Positions 416 through 21,606 of a stretch of 21,690 bases of DNA are shown one piece after another. The DNA lies in contig NYZA01000159.1 of NCBI GenBank assembly GCA_002686955.1, forward strand, positions 1-21,690, written 5' to 3'. Every line of letters starts with the position of its first letter. The first letter of the stretch is position 1. The notes under the pieces were generated by a model. That model saw nothing but the letters and a program-made list of their open reading frames with translations. It was not told the DNA's origin and ran no database searches. Source of the DNA: Gemmatimonadota bacterium (lineage in GTDB: Bacteria; GCA-2686955). A program made the translations under genes and the position numbers.

Positions 416-2155
416 CTATTCCGACCCTCTCGATGCCGTCGCCGGACGCCGCCCGCGATCGACCAAGATCTCATTCCACCGCGATCTTGCACGAAGGAAC
501 AGCCGATGGCCCACGATCAGCGCATCGAGCTTGCCCTCTTCGAACGTGCGGGCCATGTCGGCGCCGTCGCGGGCGATCGGCCGCCCCGCAACGTTCAAGC
601 TGGTATTGAGCACGGCCGGCACCCCGGTGCGCCTCGAGAAACGCTCGATCAACCGGTGGAAGCGTGGATTCTCGAGCGCCCGCACCGTTTGGGCGCGTGC
701 GCTGCCGTCACGATGCACCGCCGCGCGCAGCTGTTGCAGGGCTGCGTCGCGCACAGGCAAGGCGAACCCCATTCGGGCGCTATCCCCCCCCAACTCCAGA
801 AACTCGTGACTCCGCTCAGCCAGAATCGCGGGAGCCAGGGGACGGAACCACTCGCGTCCTTTGATCTCGCGGTTGATCCGTTCGCGGGTCGCGGGGTCGC
901 GGGGGTCGGCCAAGATAGAACGGTTTCCGAGGGCGCGGGGACCGAACTCCATTCGGCCTTGGGCCCATCCGATGATGGCGCCGCTCGCGAGCAGCTCGGC
1001 CGCCGTGTCTGCCGGATCGACGAGATCGACCGGCGGCGAGGCTCCGGCGGGGATCGGGAGCCGGGTGGGCGCTTCCGGACCGAGATAGGGCGTCGGTGGG
1101 GTCGAAGCGCGGGGCGAGCCCTTTTCGGCCGCCAGGGTGAGCGCGGCGCCGGCGGCCGTGCCCGCATCGTTGGGGGCCGGAGGCACGTGAATCCGCTCGA
1201 AGGGACCACGGCGGAGCAGAGCACCGTTCATCTGGCTGTTGAGAGCGACGCCGCCGCTGAGGCAGAGGGTCTTGGCGCCGGTCTCTCGGTGCAGATGCTT
1301 CGCGATGTGGAGAACGATCTCCTCGAGGCGGGTCTGGGCCGCCGCAGCGAGAGCGAAGTGGCGATCTTCGAGCGGCGCCCGGGGGTCTCGAGGGGGGCCG
1401 AAATAGGCGTCGAATCGCTTCGAAGTGCCGCGTTCATCTCCGTACTGGTGGCGGAACCAACGGTGGTCGAGGCTGAATCCGCCCCCCGCCTCTGCGCGAA
1501 TCGCCTCGCGTAGCGGAGCCGGATCGACAAGCTCCGCGTAGGCCGCCAGCGCCATGACCTTGTACTCGTCGGAGTAGGGCCGGAAGCCGAGATGTTGGGT
1601 GAGCGCACGCCAAAAGACACCGAGCGAATGTGGAAATGCGATCTCACGGATGGCCCGGAGGCGCCCCTGATGGAGGTGGCCGAGCCAGGCGGTGGTCCAC
1701 TCCCCCATGCCGTCGATCGAGAGCAGAGCGGGAGCCGGATCGGAGCAGTAGGCCAGGGCGTCCCAGAGGTGGGCGTGGTGGTGTTCGACGAATCGCGTCT
1801 CGATGCCGGGCGGAAGACCGAGGCGGCGCGCGAGGCCGCCATGGAGGAGTCCGATCATCCGCAGCCACCCCCCCACGTCACCGCCACGATCGGTGGCGAA
1901 TCGGATCGATCGCGGCAGATGACGAGCGACATGCACGAGTCGGGCGCCGGCATGGAGCAGTGGGCGATGGTAGAAGGCGATGGCGTCGATGCCGCCGCTG
2001 TGGCGCATACACCATTCGGCCGCCCGGCGGGGGAAGGCGCCGTCGTGTTTGATGCCGGAGAATCGCTCCTCCTCGACCGCGGCGACGAGCGTACCGTCGG
2101 CAACGATGGCGGCGGCGGAGTCGTGGCCGAATGCCGAAATGCCCAGGATTCTCAC
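416..2155 (-). CDS. NodU/CmcH-family O-carbamoyltransferase
   Basis: This 579-residue protein is of normal length for the family that moves a carbamoyl group from carbamoyl phosphate to a hydroxyl via carbamoyl-adenylate (NodU, CmcH, TobZ). Visible landmarks are the N-terminal ILGISAFGHDSAAAIV (3-18) and VEEERFSGIKHDGAFP (27-42), the metal/ATP-site HHHAH (125-129), SIDGMGEWTT (146-155), LSGGVALNSQMN (299-310), APNDAGTAAGAAL (327-339) and the C-terminal YrdC-like GRMEFGPRALGNRSILADPR (400-419), with a final NTSLN (517-521). The GTG start at 2155 overlaps the methyltransferase stop in a GTGA junction. Upstream extension of the frame is overlapped by real genes and does not resemble the family. 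In this operon a lipid-linked or transferred sugar is a reasonable acceptor, but that is inference. Confidence 0.93.
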   Translation of the reverse strand: MRILGISAFGHDSAAAIVADGTLVAAVEEERFSGIKHDGAFPRRAAEWCMRHSGGIDAIAFYHRPLLHAGARLVHVARHLPRSIRFATDRGGDVGGWLRMIGLLHGGLARRLGLPPGIETRFVEHHHAHLWDALAYCSDPAPALLSIDGMGEWTTAWLGHLHQGRLRAIREIAFPHSLGVFWRALTQHLGFRPYSDEYKVMALAAYAELVDPAPLREAIRAEAGGGFSLDHRWFRHQYGDERGTSKRFDAYFGPPRDPRAPLEDRHFALAAAAQTRLEEIVLHIAKHLHRETGAKTLCLSGGVALNSQMNGALLRRGPFERIHVPPAPNDAGTAAGAALTLAAEKGSPRASTPPTPYLGPEAPTRLPIPAGASPPVDLVDPADTAAELLASGAIIGWAQGRMEFGPRALGNRSILADPRDPATRERINREIKGREWFRPLAPAILAERSHEFLELGGDSARMGFALPVRDAALQQLRAAVHRDGSARAQTVRALENPRFHRLIERFSRRTGVPAVLNTSLNVAGRPIARDGADMARTFEEGKLDALIVGHRLFLRARSRWNEILVDRGRRPATASRGSE

Positions 2156-2886
2156 GCGGGGCGATCTCCCGCGAACGGCTCTGGTGATCGGCGCGGCGCT
2201 TCGGCAACGATCAAGACGAACCAGGCCAGTCGGCGAAGCCAGGGCAGGGCGCCCATCAGCCTGCGGTCGAGGGCGGTGGTGGCGCGGGACGGGATGATCG
2301 CGCTGACGAGGCCATGGTAGGAGACGCGCGCCCGCGCGAAGCGCTTCGTCATCGCTGCAATGTCGCGGCGCGTGAGGTAGCGGGCGCCCGAGAGACGGCC
2401 GGGCGAGAGCGCCACGCGGTAGAGGGCGACGAGGGGATGATAGGGCAGTGGTTCGAGGGCGATGAGGCGCCCCTCGGGGCGAAGGACTCTGCGGATCTCG
2501 CGCAGAAAGGCCGGCAGATTCAGATGCATGGCGGTGCTCTGGACGATCGCGAGATCTATGCAGGAGTCGCGCAGCGGGAGCCTCTCCCCCATGCCGCCGC
2601 AGAGGTCGACTGCGGAGCCGGGAGGAATCGAGCGACGGAGTCTGACCGCGCAGAGGTCGACCGCGCAGACCCGTGCGCCGCGGCGGGCGAGCTTTCGTGA
2701 GCTTCGTCCCTCGCCCGGTCCTACTTCGAGCACGCGCAGCCCAGCGATCGGATCGGCATGATCTTCCGGCAAGATCGCTTCCGCTCGCAGGAATGGGAGA
2801 TGGGCGAGCCTGCTGCGCTCTCGGTTCTCCGGTGGGATCCAATACCGATCGAAGTAGCCGGCCGGAGCCGGGCTGATCGGCGTCAC
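2152..2886 (-). CDS. class I SAM-dependent methyltransferase
   Basis: The protein is 244 residues from the GTG at 2886, which overlaps the upstream stop as GTGA; a GTG three codons further up (2895) is an alternative. The Rossmann methyltransferase motifs are in order. Motif I is RVLEVGPGEGRSS (51-63). The acidic end of strand 2 is CAVDL (74-78). A motif II/III region is ERLPLRDSCIDLAIVQ (101-116). The late motif RRVLRPEGRLIALEPL (132-147) is typical of the UbiE/Methyltransf_11 group. A hydrophobic C-terminal stretch (about 213-230) may associate with the membrane. Its position between a sugar-phosphate-lipid enzyme and a carbamoyltransferase suggests O- or N-methylation of a sugar. The sequence does not identify the substrate. 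Confidence 0.88.
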   Translation of the reverse strand: MTPISPAPAGYFDRYWIPPENRERSRLAHLPFLRAEAILPEDHADPIAGLRVLEVGPGEGRSSRKLARRGARVCAVDLCAVRLRRSIPPGSAVDLCGGMGERLPLRDSCIDLAIVQSTAMHLNLPAFLREIRRVLRPEGRLIALEPLPYHPLVALYRVALSPGRLSGARYLTRRDIAAMTKRFARARVSYHGLVSAIIPSRATTALDRRLMGALPWLRRLAWFVLIVAEAPRRSPEPFAGDRPA

Positions 2887-4835
2887 GTCGAGCACCCGCC
2901 GGTGGCGCCGGATATCGATCGAGTCTCGTAGCTCGCGAGAAAGGTCTCCAGCTGCTCGCCTTCGAGCGGGATTTGGCCTTCGGGCTGGATCTCGATAGGG
3001 ATGAGCCGGCCCCCGTCGCCACAGGCGATCGTCCACTGGGAATCGCAGCGATCGACGACACCAGGGCGGCCGGGGTTGCCCGGCATCGGCTCCAGGATCG
3101 ACGCCCTCCAGATCTTGACCCGATCCCTTCCATTGCCACTGAAGGCCCCCGGAAAGGGGCGGGCCACGGCGCGCACCAGATTCCGGACCTCTCGCGCGGA
3201 AGAGCTCCAGTCGATCCGGCCGTCCTCGGGAGTTCTCTTGCCGACCCAGAACGCCTTCGATTCATCTTGGGGACGAGGCGTGTAGTCGCCTCCGCGCAGG
3301 TCGGGCCAGGTGTCCTTGAAGAGATCGAGGGCCGCACCGGCCAGCTTCGCCGAGAGAGTTCCGGCATCATCTCGTTCCTCGATCGGGATCGGGAGCTGAG
3401 AGACGATCGGTCCAGCGTCGGGGGATTCGACCATTTCGTGAATCGTGATGCCCGTCTCGGTCTCTCCACGCAGCAAGGCCCAGTTCATTGGAGCCCGGCC
3501 GCGATAGGCCGGCAGGAGCGAAGGGTGCAGATTGAAGGCGCCGCGCGAGGCCAGTCCCAGCACGGCCGCCGGCAGGATCCTGCGATAGTAGACCGAGAGG
3601 ATCATGTCGATCTCGAGATCGATCAGTGTACGCAGAAAGCCCGGGGAATCGACTCGACCGGAGAGCAAGACCGGGATGTGATGGCGAGCGGCGAGCTCGC
3701 TGACGCTGGGCCATGCGGACCGGTCCTCGTCGGTCTCGGGGTGGGTGGCGACGGCGATGGGAGCGGCCCCCGAGTCGATAAGGTGCCGCAGAACGGCGTG
3801 GCCGACCTCGCGGAAGGCGCATAGCAGGAGGCGCGGCTCGGCGCGGCATTCGACGCGGGCGTCGCTCCGCGAGCCCCGACCTCGGCGCGTGGGCCAGGCA
3901 TCCGCGATCTGAGGGAAAGGGCCGGGCCGAAGCTGGCGATAGAGTCTGAAGGCGTACAGGGTCAAGACCGCCTGAACCGCGATGATTCCCCCCGCCATCG
4001 CCGCGGAGAGGCCCGCGAGACCGAGGCTGAGCGGGTCGGCGGTGAAGGCGAAGAGGGCGGCCAGCAACGCCACCGCCACCAGAGAGGTTCCGGCGCCAAG
4101 GATCACCAGCCCGGTGCCCACGAGCAGGTGGAGCGGGCGCCGCGAGCTGCCGATCGAAAGGTCGATCGCGAGGCGGGCCAAACCACGGAAGTTGTACTTC
4201 GATACGCCGGCGAGGCGATCGGTATGTGGAATCTCGATCTCTTCCAGCGAGCCGGCGGCGTGAAAAGCGAGGGCGGGCACGTAGGGCGAGCGTGAATCGA
4301 TCCGGAGAATCTGTTCGACGACCCGCCTCGAATACCCCCGGAACATGCAGCCGTAGTCGTGAGCCGGCACACCGGAGATCCAAGGTCCGACGAGGTGCAG
4401 CAGTCGACTCACCGCGAAACGCCGGATGCCCTCCACTCGACCGGCCCGGCTGCCGGAGACCAGATCGCATCCCGATTCGACCCGATCGACAAAACGGGGG
4501 ATCTCTTCGGGCGGATTCTGCAGATCGCCGTCGAGCGTGACCACGCTGGCTCCCGATGATGCCCGAAAGCCCGCGAGTATCGCCGCATGCTGCCCGTGAT
4601 TCCCTTTCAGCGCAACTACACCGATCTTGGAGGCATAGCGTTCGCGCCAGCGCAGAAGGCGATCGAGGGTGGCGTCGGTACTGCCGTCGTCCACCAGAAT
4701 CAACTCCGCTTCTTCTCCGTACGGATCGAGGGCACCGAGGGTGCGTTCGACAAGCCCGTCGACGTTGTCGGCCTCGTTCAGAACCGGCACGATGACGGAA
4801 ACGCGACAGGGAGCGGCGGAATCGCCTTGTGGCAT
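2883..4835 (-). CDS. fused ArnC-like polyprenyl-phosphate glycosyltransferase and ArnA-like formyltransferase
   Basis: The protein is 650 residues from ATG 4835; a TTG at 4871 is also in frame but less likely. Residues 11-230 form a GT2 domain with VSVIVPVLNEADN (12-24), LVDDGSTD (48-55), LDGDLQNPPEEIP (101-113) and an Arg-rich ending, as in ArnC/DPMS enzymes that load a sugar onto undecaprenyl phosphate. Two membrane helices follow (about 237-262 and 270-298). From residue 335 a second complete domain resembles the formyltransferase half of ArnA: FNLHPSLLPAYRGRAPMNW (434-452), GETETGITIHEM (457-468) and SPDAGPIVSQ (471-480). N435, H437 and D473 match the catalytic Asn-His-Asp of formyltetrahydrofolate-dependent enzymes. 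A C-terminal OB-like region completes it. In enterobacteria these are separate ArnC and ArnA proteins. The ArnA decarboxylase half is absent. The product is probably a formamido-sugar on a lipid carrier; the sugar identity is unknown. Confidence 0.9.
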   Translation of the reverse strand: MPQGDSAAPCRVSVIVPVLNEADNVDGLVERTLGALDPYGEEAELILVDDGSTDATLDRLLRWRERYASKIGVVALKGNHGQHAAILAGFRASSGASVVTLDGDLQNPPEEIPRFVDRVESGCDLVSGSRAGRVEGIRRFAVSRLLHLVGPWISGVPAHDYGCMFRGYSRRVVEQILRIDSRSPYVPALAFHAAGSLEEIEIPHTDRLAGVSKYNFRGLARLAIDLSIGSSRRPLHLLVGTGLVILGAGTSLVAVALLAALFAFTADPLSLGLAGLSAAMAGGIIAVQAVLTLYAFRLYRQLRPGPFPQIADAWPTRRGRGSRSDARVECRAEPRLLLCAFREVGHAVLRHLIDSGAAPIAVATHPETDEDRSAWPSVSELAARHHIPVLLSGRVDSPGFLRTLIDLEIDMILSVYYRRILPAAVLGLASRGAFNLHPSLLPAYRGRAPMNWALLRGETETGITIHEMVESPDAGPIVSQLPIPIEERDDAGTLSAKLAGAALDLFKDTWPDLRGGDYTPRPQDESKAFWVGKRTPEDGRIDWSSSAREVRNLVRAVARPFPGAFSGNGRDRVKIWRASILEPMPGNPGRPGVVDRCDSQWTIACGDGGRLIPIEIQPEGQIPLEGEQLETFLASYETRSISGATGGCST

Positions 4836-4870
4836 GAAATCAAAGATCTTACGAGGATGACGCTGGTGCA

Positions 4871-4888
4871 AGGGTGCGTTGACACCCT
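4871..4888. promoter_or_regulatory. candidate operator: perfect 6-bp inverted repeat over a -35 box
   Basis: AGGGTG-N6-CACCCT is a perfect inverted repeat with a 6-base spacer. Its right half overlaps the TTGACA -35 box of the plus-strand promoter, and a third copy of the half-site CACCCT lies at 4912-4917 near the expected start of transcription. It sits between the divergent envelope-sugar operon and the lipoprotein gene, so a bound regulator could affect both. No regulator gene is visible in the window. The protein that binds is unknown. Confidence 0.4.
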
Positions 4889-7381: not shown

Positions 7382-9241
7382 CTACTTCACGATGAGCATC
7401 GAGCGGGTTTCGCTGACGCCATCGGCCTCTATGCGGTAGAAGTAGACACCCGAGGAGACCTTGCTGCCATTGTCAGCCAGGCCGTTCCAACGGACGGTGT
7501 GACGACCCGCGGCCTTCTCACCATCAACCAGGGTGCGCACCTTGCGGCCGCTCGCGGCGTATACAGTCAGCTCGACCTGGCCGGCCTTGGCCATCTCGAA
7601 GCCGATGCTCGTAGATGGGTTGAAGGGGTTCGGAGCGTTCTGATGAAGAACGACCTTGCCGGGTGCCGCGGGGGCACCGATGCCATCACCCTCGATGCCA
7701 GTCGGGATATCCGGGCGGTAGAACATGACATCCGAGGGGGGAGCGCCCGCGAACATCTCCGACCAGACATAGCCTGGACCCGATCCTGGTACTTCGTGCG
7801 TGATGTGCACGAACATCGGCTGGCGATCCAGAATGGCGTCGTCGATGGAGATTGCGGAGACCTGCGTCCGCTCCGACCAGCCGGCATCCGCGCCCACGGC
7901 GCCGAGATCGTTGCTCTGCATCCACACCTGGAACGCAGGTCCACAGATCATCCAGCCACCGCCATCGGCCGTCACGCTCATGTAGGACGAAATGAAGCCC
8001 ACATAGAGAATGTCCGAAGCGCCGCCACGGTAGATGCCGAGCTGCGGAAGACCGGTCAGAGAATCGGTCGCGATGCTCACGCTGTCGGGCTCGAAGTCGC
8101 AGCTATCGGCAACCGCGAGCAGAGCCGCGCGGTCCTGCAGCGGTCCGTGCGAATCCTCGACCCAGGTGTCGGCTTCAAAGTGGCCCGTCACATACTGCGC
8201 GGGGCCGATCAGCACGCCGTTGTCCTGCAAACCGGAGAGTCCGCCCGAAGCGTCCGGGGCCAAGTTCTCTTGGTAGACCATATGAACCGTGTGATTGCGA
8301 TCTACCACGAGCGAGGGCTCGACGTTCTGCTTCGATACGCCGCCGACGGCCACGGTTTGCGCCGGGCTCCAGCTCGCTCCGCCATCGGTGGAGCGGTGGA
8401 TGAAGGCCTCGAGCAAATTGTCGCCTTCGGTGTCGCCGTTGTAAGCGACATAGAGGTCGCCGTTGCTCGGGTCGGCCGCGCCGCTCGGGAGGAGCCACAT
8501 GTCGTTGACCCCGCTCGCAACCGTGGTTTGGGTCCAGGTTGCGCCGTCATCGTCGGAGATATTCGCCACGACGTTGACGCCGGTCGCACCTTCCTGCGAC
8601 ACGATCATCCACTTGCCATCGGACGACTGGTCGAGGAAGGGGAATGTGCTTCCGACGGGATCATCGGTCACCTGGAGGCTCGTGCCCCACTCCTCGGAGG
8701 CGAAATCGAAGGTATTGATCCAGACGTTGTAGTGGTCGGGGTCGGTGTCGCCGTCGATATGGGCGTGGTAGGCGACCATGATTCCGCCATCCAGCTCGTG
8801 ACCGCTCGGGCGACCGCCGTCGTTCTGGATGTCGGGCTCGTTTACGGTGCCCTCCGCGGACCAGAAGCCGAAACCGAGAACCTCATCCCAGTACTTGCCG
8901 GTGACGGCCATGTCGTTCTCGTCGTTCCACTCGTAGAACGCGAAGTAGGTGTCCTGCGAGGGGACGTACACCGAGTGGCGCTCCTGCGGGTAGTCGGTGG
9001 GGGATTGCAAACCGGGGATCCAACCGGCGCGGTCCACTCCACTCCTCACGACATGAACGGAGTCACCGGGGGGGACAGCGAAGTAGGAGTTCGGCTCCTT
9101 GCTCTGCTCGTTCCCGAGGCTCGCGTTCGGGAAGAGCACTGGCTCAGTTCTGGTGGTTGGTGAGGCCACGGCCGGGCTCGCCAAGCTCGACGAGAGCATG
9201 ACGGCGGGAACCGTGAATGCCAACGCATAACGATTGATCAT
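7382..9241 (-). CDS. secreted propeller-like protein with Asp-box motifs and a FlgD-like/T9SS-type C-terminal domain
   Basis: The protein has 619 residues. ATG 9241 is preceded by AGGAG at good spacing. Residues 1-27 are a signal peptide (cleavage near AVA-SP). The central part has sialidase/BNR Asp-box motifs: ISDDDGATW (228-236) and STDGGASW (284-291), with beta-strand blocks such as DLYVAYNGD and TVHMVYQEN that fit a beta-propeller. No sialidase catalytic Arg triad was recognised, so an enzyme activity is not claimed. Residues 531-619 form the typical C-terminal domain: LHQNAPNPFNPSTSIGFEM (532-550), VYAASGRKVRTL, WNGLADNGSKVSSGVYFYRI and a final LIVK. Such domains mark exported proteins in FCB-type bacteria and in Bacteroidota direct type IX secretion. 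A PorV-like gene lies just upstream, consistent with that route. Confidence 0.88.
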   Translation of the reverse strand: MINRYALAFTVPAVMLSSSLASPAVASPTTRTEPVLFPNASLGNEQSKEPNSYFAVPPGDSVHVVRSGVDRAGWIPGLQSPTDYPQERHSVYVPSQDTYFAFYEWNDENDMAVTGKYWDEVLGFGFWSAEGTVNEPDIQNDGGRPSGHELDGGIMVAYHAHIDGDTDPDHYNVWINTFDFASEEWGTSLQVTDDPVGSTFPFLDQSSDGKWMIVSQEGATGVNVVANISDDDGATWTQTTVASGVNDMWLLPSGAADPSNGDLYVAYNGDTEGDNLLEAFIHRSTDGGASWSPAQTVAVGGVSKQNVEPSLVVDRNHTVHMVYQENLAPDASGGLSGLQDNGVLIGPAQYVTGHFEADTWVEDSHGPLQDRAALLAVADSCDFEPDSVSIATDSLTGLPQLGIYRGGASDILYVGFISSYMSVTADGGGWMICGPAFQVWMQSNDLGAVGADAGWSERTQVSAISIDDAILDRQPMFVHITHEVPGSGPGYVWSEMFAGAPPSDVMFYRPDIPTGIEGDGIGAPAAPGKVVLHQNAPNPFNPSTSIGFEMAKAGQVELTVYAASGRKVRTLVDGEKAAGRHTVRWNGLADNGSKVSSGVYFYRIEADGVSETRSMLIVK

Positions 9242-9423: not shown

Positions 9424-10383
9424 TCAAAATCGAATCCCAAGCGAATACCGGTGAACATCGGGAAGAATGTCCCCGGCAGTGTAGGCGTAATCGAACTTGG
9501 CGGCGCCATCGGCAAGATAGACGCCCCCTCCAACGCTCCAGGTCTCGTCGTCGTAGCGGAATCGGTAGCCTCCGCGTAGCGCCACCCAATCGCGCAGGGT
9601 GTACTCCGCACCCACATTCGCCCGTTCCCGATTGTCGTTGGGGTGGCTTCCCTCCGCCGCGAGCTGCAGTGCATGGACCTCTGTCCTGAACAGATCGGCG
9701 GCGACGCCGACCTTGAAGTTGATCGGCAGCGGCGCGGCTTCGACGAGGTAAATGAGATCGGGACCGAAATTGCTGATCGCCATACCGAAGTTGATGCCGT
9801 GATAGCCGGTTCGGTAGAGGGTCCCGATATCGATTCCCCACGAGCGGGCTGAAGCATCGACGGCGGGCTCGTCTCTGATCGGCTCCAGGTCGGCCAGGAA
9901 GGAGGAAACGAAGCGGAAAGTGAAGCCAGCGGAGAATTTGTCGGTCAGATCCAGCGCATAGGTACCAGCCAGACCGTACTCCGAGGAACGGAAGTTCCGG
10001 CCGGTTCCCGTCGGATCGAGCGGAGTCGTCTCCGGCATATCATCGGTTCTGAGTGCCTGGAAGCTGATCCCAACCCGTCCGGAAGCGACGTACGTGGGCA
10101 GCACGACCCCGGCGAACTCGTACGAAACCCCGGCTCCGTGGTACAGGTCGATGTGCGAAAGCACCGCCTCTCCGCCGGGGATGGCGGTGATCGACGCCGG
10201 ATTATAGTAGAGGCCCGACGCGTCGTCGGTCGCGGCCACCGTGGCGTCGCCCATGCCGACTGCTCGCGCGCTCACACCCACTTTCAGAAACTGGGCCGTC
10301 GCGGTCCCGACCTTGTCTTGGGCGTGGGCAGCCGACACGGCCAGGAACAACCCGGCTGTCAGAGCCAGAGCCTTTGTTTTCAT
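9424..10383 (-). CDS. PorV/PorQ-like (UPF0164) outer-membrane beta-barrel protein
   Basis: The protein has 319 residues. ATG 10383 has AGGAGA about 9 bases upstream. The signal peptide ends AHA-QD (residue 21). The start of the mature protein, FLKVGVSARAVGMGDATVA followed by DDASGLYYNPAS, is the family signature of PorV/PorQ-type barrels, with the conserved G-A-R-x-x-G-M-G and Y-x-N-P-A/S blocks. The rest alternates aromatic and polar residues as in a transmembrane beta-barrel and ends in a C-terminal aromatic (GIRF). In Bacteroidota PorV binds the C-terminal domain of type IX cargo and shuttles it. Two neighbours here carry such domains, so a similar role is plausible. It starts 27 bases after the 856-residue gene and belongs to the same operon. 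Membership in PorV rather than another UPF0164 branch is not certain. Confidence 0.85.
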   Translation of the reverse strand: MKTKALALTAGLFLAVSAAHAQDKVGTATAQFLKVGVSARAVGMGDATVAATDDASGLYYNPASITAIPGGEAVLSHIDLYHGAGVSYEFAGVVLPTYVASGRVGISFQALRTDDMPETTPLDPTGTGRNFRSSEYGLAGTYALDLTDKFSAGFTFRFVSSFLADLEPIRDEPAVDASARSWGIDIGTLYRTGYHGINFGMAISNFGPDLIYLVEAAPLPINFKVGVAADLFRTEVHALQLAAEGSHPNDNRERANVGAEYTLRDWVALRGGYRFRYDDETWSVGGGVYLADGAAKFDYAYTAGDILPDVHRYSLGIRF

Positions 10384-10410: not shown

Positions 10411-12981
10411 CTACTTGAGGACCACGAACTTGCCGACTTCTATCTCAGCATTGCCGGCGGGTTCGACCGCGAAGAGGTAGATGCCGCTCACAATGGCCTG
10501 ACCGTTCCGGGAGATCAGATCCCAGTAGGCGGTCGTATCGTCTTCGTGATCGGGCACGAACTCGAACTCATCGACCAGATCGCCCGCGAGCGTGAAGACC
10601 CGAATCGTCGCTCGGCCGGCGATGTTGGTGAAAGCGATCTTCCGATCGAACTCGGTCCACGATTGGGCATCCTTCTCCCAGCCCCCGCGATAATCCGCCG
10701 TGATCTTGTATGGGTTGGGAACGACCAGAGTCGGCAAGGACGCGGCCTGCTCCGTCGGTGTGGTGGGCGTGATCTGGGTCGCGTTGATGAAAACGCTCGA
10801 CTCCAACGGGGCCAGATTCGCCGGCGGATATCCGTTGTCGTAGCTGGTGACCGCTACGTAGACCGGCCAGTTCGAGACGATCGGGCCATACCGATGTCGA
10901 TAGCGATAATCCGTCGAGTCGGCGTCCGTGTTCAGGATCGACACGAAACCGGTGTTTCGTCCGAGCGTGTCCTCCATCGTGCCGGTGATGTTCAGGTCCT
11001 CGTCGTATGTCGGCACCTGGTCGACATCGAGATCGAGAATCGTGGTGAAATCGTTGCTGGCGCCCGTGCGGCTGACGTAGACACGGTAGCCCTGAAAATC
11101 CCGGCGTCTCTTCGCGTCAGGGATAAAGCCGTCGGAGAACACCTCTGGCGCATCGTTCCATTTGAGGACCAGGTGATTGGCGTCGGGCTTTTCGATCTTG
11201 AGCGAAGGTGAGGGAGGCGGAGGGGGTCCAGAAAAGTCCGGGACTCCATCACCTTCGTCGAGCTTCCCGTTCTCGGCACCGAAACGCACCTCGCTCGCGA
11301 GATGGAGGCGCGAGTAGGTCGACATGATCTGCTCGGGCGTCAGATTCCAGTCGACGTCAGCGGCGATGCTCTCCAGATACTCCAGTGCGCTCTGGTCCGG
11401 GTCGCCGGGATCGGGGTCGATCCAACGGATGACGTAACGCAACGCCAGATCTTCCCCATCATCGAGCACTCCGTTCCCTTCACCGAAATCGAGGGTGCCG
11501 GGCAGTCCATCGGCTCCGACATCCTCACCGAAGAAGTAGTCGCCGGTATCGAGCACACCGTCGTCCTCCCCAATGTCGGGCGGGTCGGTCGGTCGGCCGT
11601 CGACCCCATAGTCGTACGATTTGGTATCGACCCCCGGATTGTCGAAGACGAACTGAACCCACTGAGCATTGATGTCGAAATCGGTGAAGTCGTTCTCATC
11701 GACCGAGCCACCTGCCCAAAAGTTCTCGGCGCAGAAGTAGCCGAGTGTGAAGGGCAGCTTCTCCAACGCGCCGGGCTCGATCGTGAAGGGACCGAAGGAG
11801 AAGAGAAAACGGGTGTCTTCGGCTCCGACCGCGCTGTTGTCGGGCTTGCGAGCATCGAGCTGATCGGGATCGATGCCGGGATTGGGCAGTGTCTCGTTCT
11901 GCCAACCCTTCATGATCAGGTACTTGTTGACGTCGCCATCCGGTGTTCCCTGGAGTCCCCCCCCTCCGGGGAACTTCCGTCCCGGGCCCCAGTCGGTCTG
12001 CACATCGGGATCGGAGAGCCACCAGTTGAAGGTGGTCATGAGGTTTTTGGCCGGGGAGCGAACGACCCTGACGCCCATCACCCCCGGAACGAGCAGTCCA
12101 TCTCCCGCGCCCTGAGCCCGATAGCTGGGTCCATCGTAGTCCGCTAGCCAGGCGGCGTTGATCTCCTTCAGCCCGTCGGCGGAGAACTGGCGGAATCCGG
12201 TGACATCATCCTGCGCATTGTCCGATCCGTCGCCATCGTCTTGTGGCGTCGGACCGACATCTCCGTCGAGGTAGATGCCGACGAACAGGTCCTTCAGGGT
12301 TTTCAGGCCGAGATTCTCGATCTCATAGTCGAAGATCACGAAGTCCTCGGCGTAGCTGAAGGAGAGTGCGTGGGATGTTTGTTTGACACTGATGTTCAGG
12401 GGTTTTCGGTGATTCGGCGAAATCCGCGTGTCATCCGCCGCGGTCATTGTGTCTGTGTACACACCCACGAAGGACTGGTCGGCGAGCCCGAGCACCGAGT
12501 CGTAGTTGGCCGCACTCGGATTGTTGGTGTAGACCTGGATCGTGTCGCCAGTGCCGCTACCGGCGATGAACTCGCGTTCGTGTTGCCAGCCGTCGTGCCC
12601 CACGCTCACCAAGGTATCGTTGCCGACGATGGCGCCTACCCATATCGCGCCTTGGAAAAGATAGTCGAATCCGCTACGGGCCGGGAACTGACAGGAGATG
12701 TACCCCTCGTGGCCACATGTCTCCGTGAAGGGATAGATGTTCGTCTCGTCCGGCAGTCCGAAGACGCCGAAATTCGAAACGAGCAACCAAAGATTAGACA
12801 CATCGTGGCAGAGCTGGTCGTCCTTAGCCCCCGCCTGGATCCCCTCCTCCGAAAGGCGAATCGGTGGCTCGCGCGGCTCGAGGTCGTCGCCGTCCGAGCT
12901 CCAGATCGCGTGCGTTCCGCCGACCGGTCCCAGGGTGATCAAGGCCGCCGCGGCGGCTGCCCTCCACATGCGCGTACTCAT
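10411..12981 (-). CDS. large secreted protein with calcium-loop-like repeats, an FnIII-like module and a FlgD-like C-terminal domain
   Basis: The protein has 856 residues. Of the in-frame Met codons, the one at 12981 is chosen because GGAGG lies 6 bases before it; the Met at 12987 abuts the GGAGG. The signal peptide ends GGTHA (25). Residues 60-450 are an unrecognised beta-rich region with Cys at 58, 89, 97 and 417. Residues 456-510 contain two repeats, DYGVDGRPTDPPDIGEDDG and DVGADGLPGTLDFGEGNG, of the kind that fills the insert of the adjacent TonB receptor, plus a shorter copy at 567-582. A Pro-rich linker (586-592) leads to an FnIII-like module (about 593-735). The C-terminal domain starts VVPNPYKI (753) and ends GKFVVLK. 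The gene follows the receptor gene by 91 bases. The protein is probably surface-exposed and a partner of the receptor; the ligand is unknown. Confidence 0.85.
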   Translation of the reverse strand: MSTRMWRAAAAAALITLGPVGGTHAIWSSDGDDLEPREPPIRLSEEGIQAGAKDDQLCHDVSNLWLLVSNFGVFGLPDETNIYPFTETCGHEGYISCQFPARSGFDYLFQGAIWVGAIVGNDTLVSVGHDGWQHEREFIAGSGTGDTIQVYTNNPSAANYDSVLGLADQSFVGVYTDTMTAADDTRISPNHRKPLNISVKQTSHALSFSYAEDFVIFDYEIENLGLKTLKDLFVGIYLDGDVGPTPQDDGDGSDNAQDDVTGFRQFSADGLKEINAAWLADYDGPSYRAQGAGDGLLVPGVMGVRVVRSPAKNLMTTFNWWLSDPDVQTDWGPGRKFPGGGGLQGTPDGDVNKYLIMKGWQNETLPNPGIDPDQLDARKPDNSAVGAEDTRFLFSFGPFTIEPGALEKLPFTLGYFCAENFWAGGSVDENDFTDFDINAQWVQFVFDNPGVDTKSYDYGVDGRPTDPPDIGEDDGVLDTGDYFFGEDVGADGLPGTLDFGEGNGVLDDGEDLALRYVIRWIDPDPGDPDQSALEYLESIAADVDWNLTPEQIMSTYSRLHLASEVRFGAENGKLDEGDGVPDFSGPPPPPSPSLKIEKPDANHLVLKWNDAPEVFSDGFIPDAKRRRDFQGYRVYVSRTGASNDFTTILDLDVDQVPTYDEDLNITGTMEDTLGRNTGFVSILNTDADSTDYRYRHRYGPIVSNWPVYVAVTSYDNGYPPANLAPLESSVFINATQITPTTPTEQAASLPTLVVPNPYKITADYRGGWEKDAQSWTEFDRKIAFTNIAGRATIRVFTLAGDLVDEFEFVPDHEDDTTAYWDLISRNGQAIVSGIYLFAVEPAGNAEIEVGKFVVLK

Positions 12982-13072
12982 CTGCATCCTCCGTGCCTCG
13001 GTCCTCGATCTTACGAGTGCCGACCCGATCGCCGCCGAATCGCTTGAAGTCGGTCTGGAACGCGACACTTTT

Positions 13073-16000
13073 CTAGAATCCAACCTCGAGTCCCACCTCG
13101 ATCTGCCGCCCTGGCGAAATCCGAGCCGGGTTCCTGCTGATCGCTCTGTTGTCACCGAACCAGGTTCCATATTCCGAATCGACGAATAGCACATTCTCTC
13201 GGCCCAGGAGATTGGACACCTCCGCGAATACATTGTACCGAAGACCAGCCAGTCCGAAACCCTTGTCGACGATCACGTCGACCGTGCTGGTCCACGGCAT
13301 CCGTGCCGAGTTCTTGGCGCCAACCTCGCGTCCGAAGAGCTGAGGCGTGTACGGGAACCCGCTCCCGAGCTGCCACAGTAGGTTGATCCCCCAGTCGTCG
13401 GGCAGTTTGAAACCCGCGATCGAGGGGTGCTGATCTTTCATTACGCGGAAGTCGATGTTCGTGGAAAGCGAATGTCGCTGGTCGAAATCGAGCGGGAATT
13501 CCCGCGGAGTCGTCGCGGTCGCCCCGTAGCCCTCGAAGGCATCGGAGTTCTTTCCGCTGGCGAACTGGTAGGTGTACGAAAGGTTGCCGCTGGTGTAGTT
13601 GGAATACCGCTTGTCGAGGACGACCTCGATCCCTCTTGCGTTTCCATAGTCGGAATTCTGGTACACCCACTCCGGTCGGCCGGTCGCCTCGTTCAAAGTC
13701 CTGGTCGCTTGGATCAGATCGCGGAAGTCCTTGAAGAAGGCTTTCACATCGACCTTCACATCGTCTGAGAAAGCGTGGTCGATTCCGAACTCGTAGGCGA
13801 CGGTCTTGGGCGAGCGCAGCTCGTAGTTCCCCTTGAGCGCCAAGGCCGACGCTCCTTGCTCATTTGAATTGTAGATCGAAGAAAGCTCGGGAACCTGCGA
13901 GAAGTGCCCATAGGAGAAGTACATCTTGTCGTGCTCGGAGATCGGATAGCTCACACCAAGCCGCGGCGATACTTTGTTCTCAAGTGTCTTTCGCAGAGTG
14001 TCCGGGACCGTTCCACCATCGCCGAAGATCCCCCGCACGATCCAGAAGTCGTAGCGAACGCCGGATTTGATGATGAGATCTTCCCACTCGAACTGATCCT
14101 GGAGCCAGACGGCGCCTTCGAGAGGCGGCGCGTCCCAGAAGTTCCGGAAGATCCCCCGCTCCTGCCATAGTCCCGTGGCCTCGACACTGTTCTCGGCCGG
14201 GATGAAGCGAAAGTAAGGATAACTGATCCGTTGCTGTTCCAAGAAGTGTTGCCGGAACTCAGCACCGGCTTTCACCTGGTGGTGCTCGGTCGCCTGACTT
14301 TCCAGCGAAGCCCGAATCGTGTACTGCGTCGACTCGGTCTTTTCGAAGGGACTGTGTTGCCGGAAAGCCCCTGCGTACTCCTCGTCCCATGTGCCGTTGA
14401 AGTTGGCGTCGACAAAAGGCTCTCCGTGATCCCAGCGGCCGTTGGGAGCATCGTACTCGCCATCGCCGTCGCGGTCCTGATACGGCTCGCCCGCGTCCCA
14501 TCGACCGTTGCCGGCGGTCGCATAGGTGTAGGTGCCGTTGCCATCTTGGTCCACGTACGGCTCCCCTACGTCGTAGACACCATTCCATTGGCCGGGATCG
14601 TACGTGGCGAAATCGCCGTCGGGGCCCGCATCATCGAAGGGTTCGCCGCCGTTGAACGTACCGTCGCCGGTGCGATCGACGAAAGAGTCGGCCTGGTCCC
14701 ACTCTCCGTCCCCGATCAGGTCGAAGAAGGGCTCACCATTGTCGTAGCGGCCGTTGCCCTCTCCCAGATCGTGGGTATTCGCTTTTCCATCGACGCCGAC
14801 ATCGATCAAGATATCACTGAAGAAAAGCTCGAAGACATCGGTGCGATCGAAGCGCCCGTTCCCATTGGTGTCGGTCCAGTCCCACTGGCCATTGAAGTTC
14901 GCATCGACATAGCGGGCACCGGAGTAGGCATCGTACTGTCCGTTGTCGTTCGAATCGTAGAATGGCTCACCATTGTTCCAGCGCCCATCGGCTTCACCGG
15001 TGTCACCCGTACGGGGAATCCCGTCGATTCCGACATCGGAGAAAGGCTCCCCTTCGTCGAATAGGCCGTTTGCCCAATCCTGGAAATCCTCTCCTACGGT
15101 CCAAGTTCCGCTGGCGTCCGCATCGGTGTAATCCTCACCGAAATCGTTGTATCGACCGTCATTGTTCGAGTCGACGAAGGTGTCTTCCGCGTACTGCTCT
15201 CCGTCGGTGAACGACTCGCCGCCGTCGAAGTTCCCGTTGCCGTTCAAGTCGACAAAATACTCGTGCACGCTCGGGTCGTTCGGGTGCACGTCGAAGACAC
15301 CGTTCCGCTCGCCCCAATCGTCGGTGTCGGGAATCTGGTCGAGGCCGTAGTCGTAGAAGGGTTCGCCCGAATCGAAGCGACCGTTGCTGTTGGCGTCGAC
15401 GAAGGTCTCCGGCGGATCCCAGAGCTCGTTGCCGTTTTGGTCGGTGAAGGTCTCTTCAGGGCGGGCGGCATCGTAGAAGCCGTCGTTGCTGTTTCGACGC
15501 CCGTTCCCGTCCATGTCGAGGTAGTCCTCGCCCTCGTCGCGAATGCCGTTCGGTGGATCGTAGTAGCCGTTGTCGTTGCGATCGTAGAACCACTCCCCCA
15601 ATCCGGCGTCGCGCTCCGCCACTTCGTATTGGGCGTTGTGGTTGATGTCGTTGTAGTCGGGAACGTAGAGGAGGAACTCGGGGAAGGAATTGTAGGTATT
15701 GAACTTCCCGTCGCCCTCTCCGTAATCGCCGGTTCCCGGAATACCGTCGAAGCCGACATCGACGAATCCACCTTCGTCGGCGCTTCTCTCGGGGGGGTCG
15801 AGCCCAGGATCGACCGGAGGCCAGTCGTTCGGGACCCCGTCGCCTTCCCCCTTGTCGAAGGAGTTCGGGAGCTGGTCTTCCCCGTAGTCATCCCAGGGCT
15901 CGCTCGAATCGACCAAAACGTCGCCGTCGGCGTAGGGCTCGGCGAAGTCGGCGTTGATGTGCTGCACGAACCACTTCAGATACTCCGATTCCGCCCAGGG

Positions 16001-17284
16001 TACGGTCGACGGATCGCTCAGGTCGGGCTCGAGCGGAAACCCATCGGGGAGCACACCGGCGTCTTGAATCGTCTGCGTGTGGACACGGCTGGCGCGCAGT
16101 TCAAAAAAGGTCTGCGGGCTGACGGTGTGGTTCCAGGTGACGTAGGCAAGGGACGAGCTCTTGTCGGTCTGCCAGTACGCATGCTCCGGGACCAGAGTGA
16201 ACGCATGCTGGTAGTAGTCCCTCTTCTCCCACGAATTCTGCATACTGAAGGTCAGCTTGTCGGAGCCTCCGAGCCTCCAGACCCACTTCGAGAGGAAAGA
16301 AAGGTTGTTCCTGTAGCGATTGTCGAAATCGAAGCCAAGAAGATTGGTCGTCTCGTTCGGCTTGCGAGCGAAAGGGGTGTGGGTATCGGTGACGTCACCG
16401 GTTGCGGTGAAGATCCACGAAAGCTGATCGCCGGGCAGATTCAAGCCGAGAACCGGGAGAAGATAGGAGCTGATCGGCTCGGGGCCTTGCAGAGAGAACT
16501 CGGCGAAGTCGGAGTTGAGGCTGTATTCCTCGGGCGTGAAGTTGTCGGTCTTGAAGCGCAGAGAGCCGCCCCACTCGGGCGTGCCTTCTTTGGTGACCAC
16601 CTTGATGATCGCCGACTGGGCCTCACCATACTCGGCGTCGAACCCACCCTGGAGGACCGAGATCTCCTCGATCGCCGCTCGACCGACCTCGAGGCCGGAG
16701 CCCTCGCCAGTAATTGGATCCTTGACCGAGATTCCGTCGACCAGGTAGCGCGCCTCATTGCCGCGACCGCCACGGAAGTGAAGCTCGCCGCCCTGCGCGA
16801 CGACTCCGGCCGTCGTCTGGAGCAGCTCGGTCACGTTGTTGATCGGCATCTGCTCGATCGATTCGGAGCTGACGGTGCGTAGCGAACTCGTGACGTCCCT
16901 CTGAATCAGCGCGCGCGTCGCCACGACCTCGGTCTGGAACTCCTCGGACTCGATCACCGCAGGCAGAAGCTCGAAGGTCAAGGGGGTGTTGCGGTCACTG
17001 AACACCTTGACGCCGGTTTGGCGCTGGGCCGTGAACCCCATCGATTCGGCGCGAACATTGTAGGAACCGGGAGGAACGTTCAGAATGAAGAACTTCCCCT
17101 TCTCGTCGGTCATGGCGCCTAGGTGGGTATCCTCGACGATCACGTTCGCGTACTGCATCGGATCCCCGGTCTCTTTGTCGAGGACCTTCCCCGTGATCTT
17201 ACCCGTGACACCCGCGAGCGCGGGGGAGCCGAGTGTGAGAAGGGCGAGGGCGGGGAGGAGCAGGAGGAGACGGAATCTACGCAC
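13073..17284 (-). CDS. TonB-dependent receptor with a carboxypeptidase-regulatory-like domain and a giant repeat insert
   Basis: The protein has 1403 residues from the GTG at 17284, which has AGGGAG 8 bases upstream; an in-frame GTG at 17293 has none. Residues 1-24 are a signal peptide (SPALA). Residues 26-110 form a CarboxypepD_reg-like beta-sandwich (GKITGKVLDKETGDPMQYANV). The plug follows, with ELLQTTAGVVAQGGELHFRGG (153-173) and YLVDGISVKDP (180-190). Barrel strands occupy about 240-440 and 985-1403, ending in a C-terminal aromatic (GLEVGF). Between them residues about 445-971 are an Asp/Asn/Gly-rich array of repeats unlike any standard receptor loop. The protein is about 500 residues longer than usual for this reason. 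No TonB box was identified by eye. It heads an operon with a repeat-sharing secreted protein and a PorV-like protein. The imported or bound substrate is unknown. Confidence 0.9.
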   Translation of the reverse strand: MRRFRLLLLLPALALLTLGSPALAGVTGKITGKVLDKETGDPMQYANVIVEDTHLGAMTDEKGKFFILNVPPGSYNVRAESMGFTAQRQTGVKVFSDRNTPLTFELLPAVIESEEFQTEVVATRALIQRDVTSSLRTVSSESIEQMPINNVTELLQTTAGVVAQGGELHFRGGRGNEARYLVDGISVKDPITGEGSGLEVGRAAIEEISVLQGGFDAEYGEAQSAIIKVVTKEGTPEWGGSLRFKTDNFTPEEYSLNSDFAEFSLQGPEPISSYLLPVLGLNLPGDQLSWIFTATGDVTDTHTPFARKPNETTNLLGFDFDNRYRNNLSFLSKWVWRLGGSDKLTFSMQNSWEKRDYYQHAFTLVPEHAYWQTDKSSSLAYVTWNHTVSPQTFFELRASRVHTQTIQDAGVLPDGFPLEPDLSDPSTVPWAESEYLKWFVQHINADFAEPYADGDVLVDSSEPWDDYGEDQLPNSFDKGEGDGVPNDWPPVDPGLDPPERSADEGGFVDVGFDGIPGTGDYGEGDGKFNTYNSFPEFLLYVPDYNDINHNAQYEVAERDAGLGEWFYDRNDNGYYDPPNGIRDEGEDYLDMDGNGRRNSNDGFYDAARPEETFTDQNGNELWDPPETFVDANSNGRFDSGEPFYDYGLDQIPDTDDWGERNGVFDVHPNDPSVHEYFVDLNGNGNFDGGESFTDGEQYAEDTFVDSNNDGRYNDFGEDYTDADASGTWTVGEDFQDWANGLFDEGEPFSDVGIDGIPRTGDTGEADGRWNNGEPFYDSNDNGQYDAYSGARYVDANFNGQWDWTDTNGNGRFDRTDVFELFFSDILIDVGVDGKANTHDLGEGNGRYDNGEPFFDLIGDGEWDQADSFVDRTGDGTFNGGEPFDDAGPDGDFATYDPGQWNGVYDVGEPYVDQDGNGTYTYATAGNGRWDAGEPYQDRDGDGEYDAPNGRWDHGEPFVDANFNGTWDEEYAGAFRQHSPFEKTESTQYTIRASLESQATEHHQVKAGAEFRQHFLEQQRISYPYFRFIPAENSVEATGLWQERGIFRNFWDAPPLEGAVWLQDQFEWEDLIIKSGVRYDFWIVRGIFGDGGTVPDTLRKTLENKVSPRLGVSYPISEHDKMYFSYGHFSQVPELSSIYNSNEQGASALALKGNYELRSPKTVAYEFGIDHAFSDDVKVDVKAFFKDFRDLIQATRTLNEATGRPEWVYQNSDYGNARGIEVVLDKRYSNYTSGNLSYTYQFASGKNSDAFEGYGATATTPREFPLDFDQRHSLSTNIDFRVMKDQHPSIAGFKLPDDWGINLLWQLGSGFPYTPQLFGREVGAKNSARMPWTSTVDVIVDKGFGLAGLRYNVFAEVSNLLGRENVLFVDSEYGTWFGDNRAISRNPARISPGRQIEVGLEVGF
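14372..15950 (-). repeat. coding region for the receptor's calcium-loop-like repeat array
   Basis: This part of the receptor gene encodes residues about 445-971. Sixteen loops fit or nearly fit D-x-[ND]-x-[ND]-G-x-x-[DN], for example at residues 568, 590, 630, 679, 705, 777, 794, 805, 870, 912, 937 and 959. This is the geometry of EF-hand-like, dockerin and thrombospondin type 3 calcium loops. Six longer units of the form D-x-G-x-D-x-x-P-x-T-x-D-x-G-E-x-x-G start near 466, 509, 645, 750, 828 and 885, joined by GEPF/GEPY motifs. At the DNA level the units are diverged, so the array is old or under selection rather than a recent expansion. Confidence 0.85.
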
Positions 17285-17293
17285 GGGGTCCAC

Positions 17294-17974: not shown

Positions 17975-18732
17975 CTACTCTTTCAGGAGTTGGCGGGGCG
18001 AATCCCCGCTCCGGTAGCGCTCGACCACGAGTTTGGCGATCGATCGCGTGGCTCCGCGCCCCAACGCCAGGGGCTCGAAGCGAATAGAATGCTCCCGCCG
18101 GAAGGCATCTACGACTTGTTGGAGATTCAAGGGGGACGGTGCTCCGGCGGTTGCCGATCCCGGATCGAAAAGAGAGGCCAACTCGGCCGGGCCCAGGGGG
18201 GAGATCGTCCCCTGGACCAGGATTCCGGTTCGCACCCTCTTCTGCGCGCTCCCCAGCACCTTGCCCCCCGCGGCCGCCAACTCATGCGGGTAGATCTCGG
18301 CGCCGCAACTCACGCCGTTCCCGCTCAGCTCGGCGCGCATCGACTCCGACGGAGGTCCACAGGGCAAGCCGGATCGTCGTAGCGCCGAGGCCACCGCCCT
18401 GGCTACGAATTCGTAGGGCGGGCCCGATCCCTCATCCCAATCGCGATAAGGTCGAGGCACGACACAGGCGTAGGAGATGTCGGTCCCGTGTAGAACCGCC
18501 TTTCCCCCGGTCGGCCTGCGCACCACGGGCAGTCCGGCGGCCTCGATCCGATTCAGGAGCGCCGAGTCCAGCGACTGGCCATATCCGATGGAGATCGCCG
18601 GTCGATCCCATCGCCAGATGTGCAGAATCGGCTCCTCACCCGGGCGGATGGCGTGAAGCAGATGATCATCGAGGGCCATCGCCTCGGATCCATCCTGCGA
18701 TTCCGCGAAGAGCAGACGCCAGATTTCGTGCT

Positions 18733-18736
<4 letters not shown>
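17975..18736 (-). CDS. LipM/LplA-type octanoyl- or lipoyl-protein transferase
   Basis: The protein has 253 residues. The TTG at 18736 overlaps the gcvP stop as TTGA and gives the usual family N-terminus ([22 protein letters not shown], 6-27). The BPL/LplA/LipB fold is marked by [10 protein letters not shown] (46-55), [20 protein letters not shown] (71-90) and [11 protein letters not shown] (157-167), with K159 as the expected conserved lysine. Cys144 ([15 protein letters not shown]) sits where LipM/LipL enzymes carry their catalytic Cys, and LplA ligases have none. Octanoyl transfer from acyl carrier protein to GcvH is therefore the preferred reading. LipM of Bacillus subtilis octanoylates GcvH, and here the gene is coupled to gcvH-gcvP, which supports this. 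An LplA-like ligase remains possible. Confidence 0.85.

Positions 18737-21606
<2,870 letters not shown>

Follow-up and report, generated by a model that had tools for sequence, protein, structure and literature searches.

The window, a stretch of 21,690 nucleotides, contains a gene for a TonB-dependent receptor with a long segment of calcium-type loops in its barrel, which raises the question whether this segment is a genuine part of the receptor and what it might do there. The gene (13073-17293, minus strand, GTG start), as judged from its open reading frame, translation and Pfam domains, encodes 1406 residues with a signal peptide at about residues 1-27. A CarboxypepD_reg-like N-terminal domain (16940-17197, minus strand, residues 33-118; PF13715, E 5e-17) precedes the plug domain that characterizes TonB-dependent receptors (16619-16903, minus strand, residues 131-225; PF07715, E 3e-13). 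The first part of the barrel (16049-16573, minus strand, residues ~241-415) comprises strands 1-7 by hand count and aligns with insert-free homologues. The second part (13076-14338, minus strand, residues 986-1406) comprises strands 8-22, also by hand count, and terminates in a phenylalanine; the match to the TonB-dependent barrel family PF00593 ends near the C-terminus, at residue 1362. The first-pass annotation had described a TonB-dependent receptor with a large insert of calcium-type loops and with a complete barrel and plug on either side of it, and both statements are borne out by the Pfam matches to the plug, the N-terminal domain and the barrel. A profile built from the insert-free members of the family finds PhuR, YncD and further receptors of known structure, and the own genome contains five TonB_C matches above the cut-off.

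A hand count of the strands, begun at the plug, gives seven before and 15 after the insert. A 22-strand barrel with a C-terminal aromatic residue is in agreement with the PF00593 match and the terminal phenylalanine, the number of 22 strands coming from the hand count alone. According to this count the insert (14339-15958, minus strand, residues ~446-985) should occupy the extracellular loop L4. The original expectation of a large surface loop between barrel strands therefore stands with respect to the position between strands 7 and 8, while the extracellular side is a prediction from the hand strand count only. AlphaFold was uninformative both for residues 232-1406 as a single sequence (mean pLDDT 28.5) and for residues 845-985 with an alignment made of other stretches of the same insert (pLDDT 30).

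The insert comprises about 540 residues and is bounded by the strands '...TFFELRASRVHT' and 'STQYTIRASLESQ...'; the segment marked initially (14372-15950) corresponds to residues ~448-974. It consists of 17% aspartate, 15% glycine and 8% asparagine. How many metal loops it contains depends on the pattern: seven for the strict D-x-N-x-N-G, 12 for the EF-type D-x-[DN]-x-[DNS]-G, and 18, of which 17 do not overlap, for the looser D-x-[DNSTG]-x-[DNSG]-G. The sixteen D-x-N-x-N-G type loops reported at first are a fair middle count, but only seven have the strict motif. For the 12-loop pattern, 2000 composition-preserving shuffles gave 0.98 loops on average and never more than 5; the remaining 866 residues of the receptor contain none, and the background ORFs of the fetched loci 0.044 per 100 amino acids. 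Tandem Repeats Finder detected no DNA repeat, so the loop units are old and diverged and reflect neither a recent expansion nor an assembly stutter.

The consensus of 131 loops is [FYW]-x-D-x-N-G-N-G-x-[YWF]-D-x-x-[E/D], with D1 and G6 as consensus positions next to N3 (90%), N5 (80%) and D9 (76%), and with aromatic residues at positions -1 (92%) and 8 (78%). Only about every second loop has glutamate or aspartate at position 12, and some loops may therefore be weak or inert. When an aromatic residue is allowed at position 8, seven loops fit the full 12-position EF pattern. The favoured spacings among the 131 loops are 15, 22, 18 and 16 residues.

It had been suggested that these repeats are of the dockerin or thrombospondin type 3 kind. 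This is right only in a loose sense. Dockerin type I modules and EF-hands do share the 12-position arrangement D1-x-[DN]3-x-[DN]5-G6-x-hydrophobic8-D9-x-x-[ED]12, and the loops seem to function in the manner of EF loops. However, they often follow each other at 15-22 residues, too tightly for the helices of dockerins or EF-hands, the aromatic residues at -1 and 8 set the insert apart, and a Pfam search with the window's insert returned no family even at E 10. Dockerin_1 was matched by two of 13 inserts, with a best E of 0.002. Thrombospondin type 3 repeats are likewise acidic tandem calcium loops of a surface protein, but the insert contains no cysteine, its spacing is different and the corresponding profile did not match the inserts. 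Membership in the dockerin, EF-hand or thrombospondin type 3 families is thus not established. Against the PDB, neither the window's receptor nor its insert alone gave a meaningful match, and the insert profile gave weak matches, among them an FrpC module (E 0.026) and the ubiquitin fusion 2ojr (E 0.21). The aligned part of this fusion (YIDTNNDGW...) is presumably a tandem 15-residue lanthanide-binding tag. Such tags have tandem EF-type loops of 15 residues, an aromatic clamp and no helices, as the insert seems to have; they are engineered, however, the match is weak, and a use of lanthanides here would be speculative. In other genomes, ORFs that do not encode receptors (L053:22-2877, L092:287-2950, L057:6260-8266 and L090:4992-7181) likewise contain loops of the same type, six to 12 per ORF.

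A segment of the same type is present at the same place in 13 other complete receptors (12 families including the window's own) and in two partial ones. Between alignment columns 412 and 988 the 13 complete homologues have 231-566 residues and the window's receptor 576, whereas ten insert-free relatives, including two paralogs from the own genome (contigs C106 and C82), have only 33-67. Since the homologues carry the loops between the same two strands and the insert-free relatives have this short connection, the segment is a true insertion and not a fusion end, as had been proposed, and the alignment across homologues that had been called for places it in the same loop in every case. Across all 13 inserts aligned, the start of the insert (P..F) and its final two loops correspond, and the inserts therefore look homologous. 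The barrel tree requires three changes of the insert state (gains or losses); it does not exclude a single origin and does not fix the number of origins. A scan of genome contigs for homologues added only one remote fragment from Bacteroidota, and viral contigs contained no homologues.

In the whole phyla of two of the carriers, the insert-bearing receptor is found in 36 of 39 and in 17 of 17 genomes (match at E ≤ 1e-100), nearly always as one gene per genome and with intact frames of ~1170-1315 residues. Within the window's own phylum the comparison is with one other genome, so this lineage is poorly sampled; the orthologue from that genome is 77% identical overall and 72% identical across the insert.

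The insert is under purifying selection. In a permutation test computed inside each of two related groups, aspartate, asparagine and glycine at the ligand positions (1, 3, 5, 6 and 9) are more conserved than the same residues elsewhere in the insert, with 0.88 versus 0.69 in the first group (p = 0.0006) and 0.96 versus 0.65 in the second (p < 0.0002). Moreover, the spacing of the loops is nearly fixed inside each group (15, 37, 18, 14, 15... in one and 18, 18, 22 in another). Relative to the sister orthologue, the insert has a pN/pS of 0.22, compared with 0.11-0.26 in the rest of the receptor, values that are a rough guide, as synonymous sites are near saturation. Taken together, conservation of the ligand positions, fixed spacing and pN/pS rule out an artefact, and they argue for a selection that preserves the geometry of the metal ligands.

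The neighbourhood of the gene points to type IX secretion (T9SS). Downstream of the receptor lies a gene for a surface protein of the T9SS-sorted type (10411-12987, minus strand, start set at the signal peptide) with a C-terminal FlgD/Por-like tail '...GKFVVLK'; its C-terminus matches the PorZ model weakly (E 0.002, below the cut-off), and it contains two loop motifs with a marginal BLAST match to the insert (E ~0.006). Then follow a PorV/PorQ-family outer-membrane protein of the T9SS shuttle type (9424-10383, minus strand; NF033709, E 1e-54, and PF19572) and a BNR-repeat protein with a T9SS type A sorting tail (7382-9241, minus strand; PF13088, PF13860 and TIGR04183 over the cut-off). A homologue of the T9SS-type partner follows the receptor, directly or one ORF on, in 12 of 16 carriers, the partner gene not adjoining the receptor in L042, L046 and L083, and a PorV homologue follows it in nine of 16. 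The SprA translocon scored above the cut-off in all 16 genomes tested (the own and 15 others; 15 of the 16 are carriers). SusC/RagA-type and other CarboxypepD_reg-bearing TonB-dependent transporters similarly combine this N-terminal domain, plug and barrel with a neighbouring surface protein. In contrast to them, however, the partner here is of the T9SS-sorted type, no SusD-family match was found among the neighbouring proteins scanned, and L4 bears the 540-residue metal-loop domain. Of the roles considered initially, ligand capture and the holding of a surface partner are both possible, and the T9SS-sorted-type neighbour together with PorV favours a surface partner. The own genome and its sister also possess a paralogous operon (L050:2938-6327 and L051:3494-6751) with an insert-free receptor and a T9SS-type partner that itself has three to four loops. 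It seems as if the loop module can sit in either of the two proteins. As the receptor of this operon has no insert, receptors and partners of this kind can in general be paired without it.

The model that we prefer, and to which we give about an even chance, is that of a calcium-rigidified surface arm that works with a T9SS-delivered partner in ligand capture. Loop L4 of a TonB-dependent transporter would have been enlarged into a metal-loop domain, built as a chain of EF-type loops that often follow each other in steps of 15-22 residues. Every loop would wrap around a single Ca2+, with the flanking aromatics as a clamp, so that the long acidic loop would become a stiff arm above the mouth of the pore. 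During barrel assembly the L4 chain would cross the membrane unfolded and set on meeting extracellular calcium. The barrel would be energised by TonB, and the arm and the neighbouring T9SS-delivered surface protein would most likely together provide the surface on which the ligand docks or is captured, with PorV shuttling or holding the partner in a pairing comparable to that of SusD with SusC. Architecture, insert site, conservation, gene neighbourhood and the presence of SprA and TonB in the genome are well supported. That the metal is calcium, that the arm is stiff and extracellular, and that it contacts a partner and serves ligand uptake, we infer.

The receptor with its insert of calcium-type loops, a conserved architecture shared by many uncultured bacteria, is apparently undescribed, in line with the initial impression of unfamiliarity: we found no published TonB receptor with such an insert, which is weak evidence, as the literature searched contained few subscription papers. 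The C-terminal domain of BamM from the Flavobacterium BAM complex is comparable in so far as this surface domain lacks well-defined secondary structure and owes part of its shape to seven ions that were modelled as Ca (PMC12611786). BamM is, however, a lipoprotein subunit rather than a receptor loop, and it was absent from the PDB profile matches. A role of the receptor in the BAM complex was considered and dropped, the subunits named in two studies of it (BamA, D, G, H-K, M and P; PMC12611786, PMC12578637) including no TonB receptor with such an insert.

Among the alternatives, the one that fares best, though we consider it unlikely, is that the receptor has a second function as an adhesin or as a surface-layer anchor, with the calcium-stiffened arm binding neighbours, surfaces or an S-layer instead of a transported ligand. 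Long acidic calcium-loop repeats are common among surface adhesins, and the non-receptor ORFs of L053, L057, L090 and L092 mentioned above carry the same loops. However, the conserved plug makes the receptor look like a working transporter, and the nearly fixed loop arrangement inside the groups is unlike the fast-changing repeats of adhesins. Still more doubtful is a function as a metal collector, in which the array of EF-type loops would enrich Ca2+ or a lanthanide at the mouth of the receptor, to be taken up or sensed there. The resemblance to lanthanide-binding tags, whose tandem spacing of 15 residues equals the favoured one here, would fit, and a TonB-dependent receptor belongs to the lanthanide uptake set of methylotrophs (PMC9260416). 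This idea is weakened, since no PQQ alcohol dehydrogenase was found above the family cut-off in the own genome (84.5% complete). Moreover, Ca2+ is not known to depend on TonB-driven import, and there is no metal-handling gene among the conserved neighbours. Finally, that the segment is a chance low-complexity stretch or was joined to the receptor by an assembly error, the misassembly named beforehand as a refuting outcome, has a negligible probability despite the skewed composition and the draft state of the genome (270 contigs) and is rejected, given the frame that is open throughout 13073-17293, the orthologue in a separate genome, the same join in dozens of homologues and the purifying selection.

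If the arm of the preferred model does bind calcium, TonB receptors of several uncultured phyla would contain a surface domain set by a metal and would apparently have type IX secretion as their counterpart in place of SusD lipoproteins. The side of an outer-membrane transporter that captures the ligand would here be built in a new way. The finding would also single out one conserved receptor for study in phyla of poorly known nutrition and provide a clean test case for the passage of very long loops across the outer membrane during barrel assembly. One could go further, more tentatively, and suppose that this one-per-genome receptor, near-universal in at least two phyla besides its own, forms with the T9SS partner and PorV a complex for uptake at the surface that differs from SusCD. 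Its pore mouth would be built by a calcium-set arm that is threaded through the membrane as a barrel loop, and calcium would control the assembly of the complex or the gating of uptake.

The flanks of the operon contain further genes. Upstream of the receptor, the region 17975-21606 comprises a lipoate-protein-ligase-like gene (17975-18754, minus strand; PF21948) and the glycine cleavage gene GcvP; a homologue of the ligase gene lies upstream of the receptor in six carriers, namely the window's own genome, G004, G291, G297, G158 and G010. At the other end of the window, an ORF in which a family 2 glycosyltransferase is joined with a formyltransferase and an adjacent carbamoyltransferase gene (2883-4871 and 416-3469, minus strand) look like genes for the modification of surface-polysaccharide sugars.
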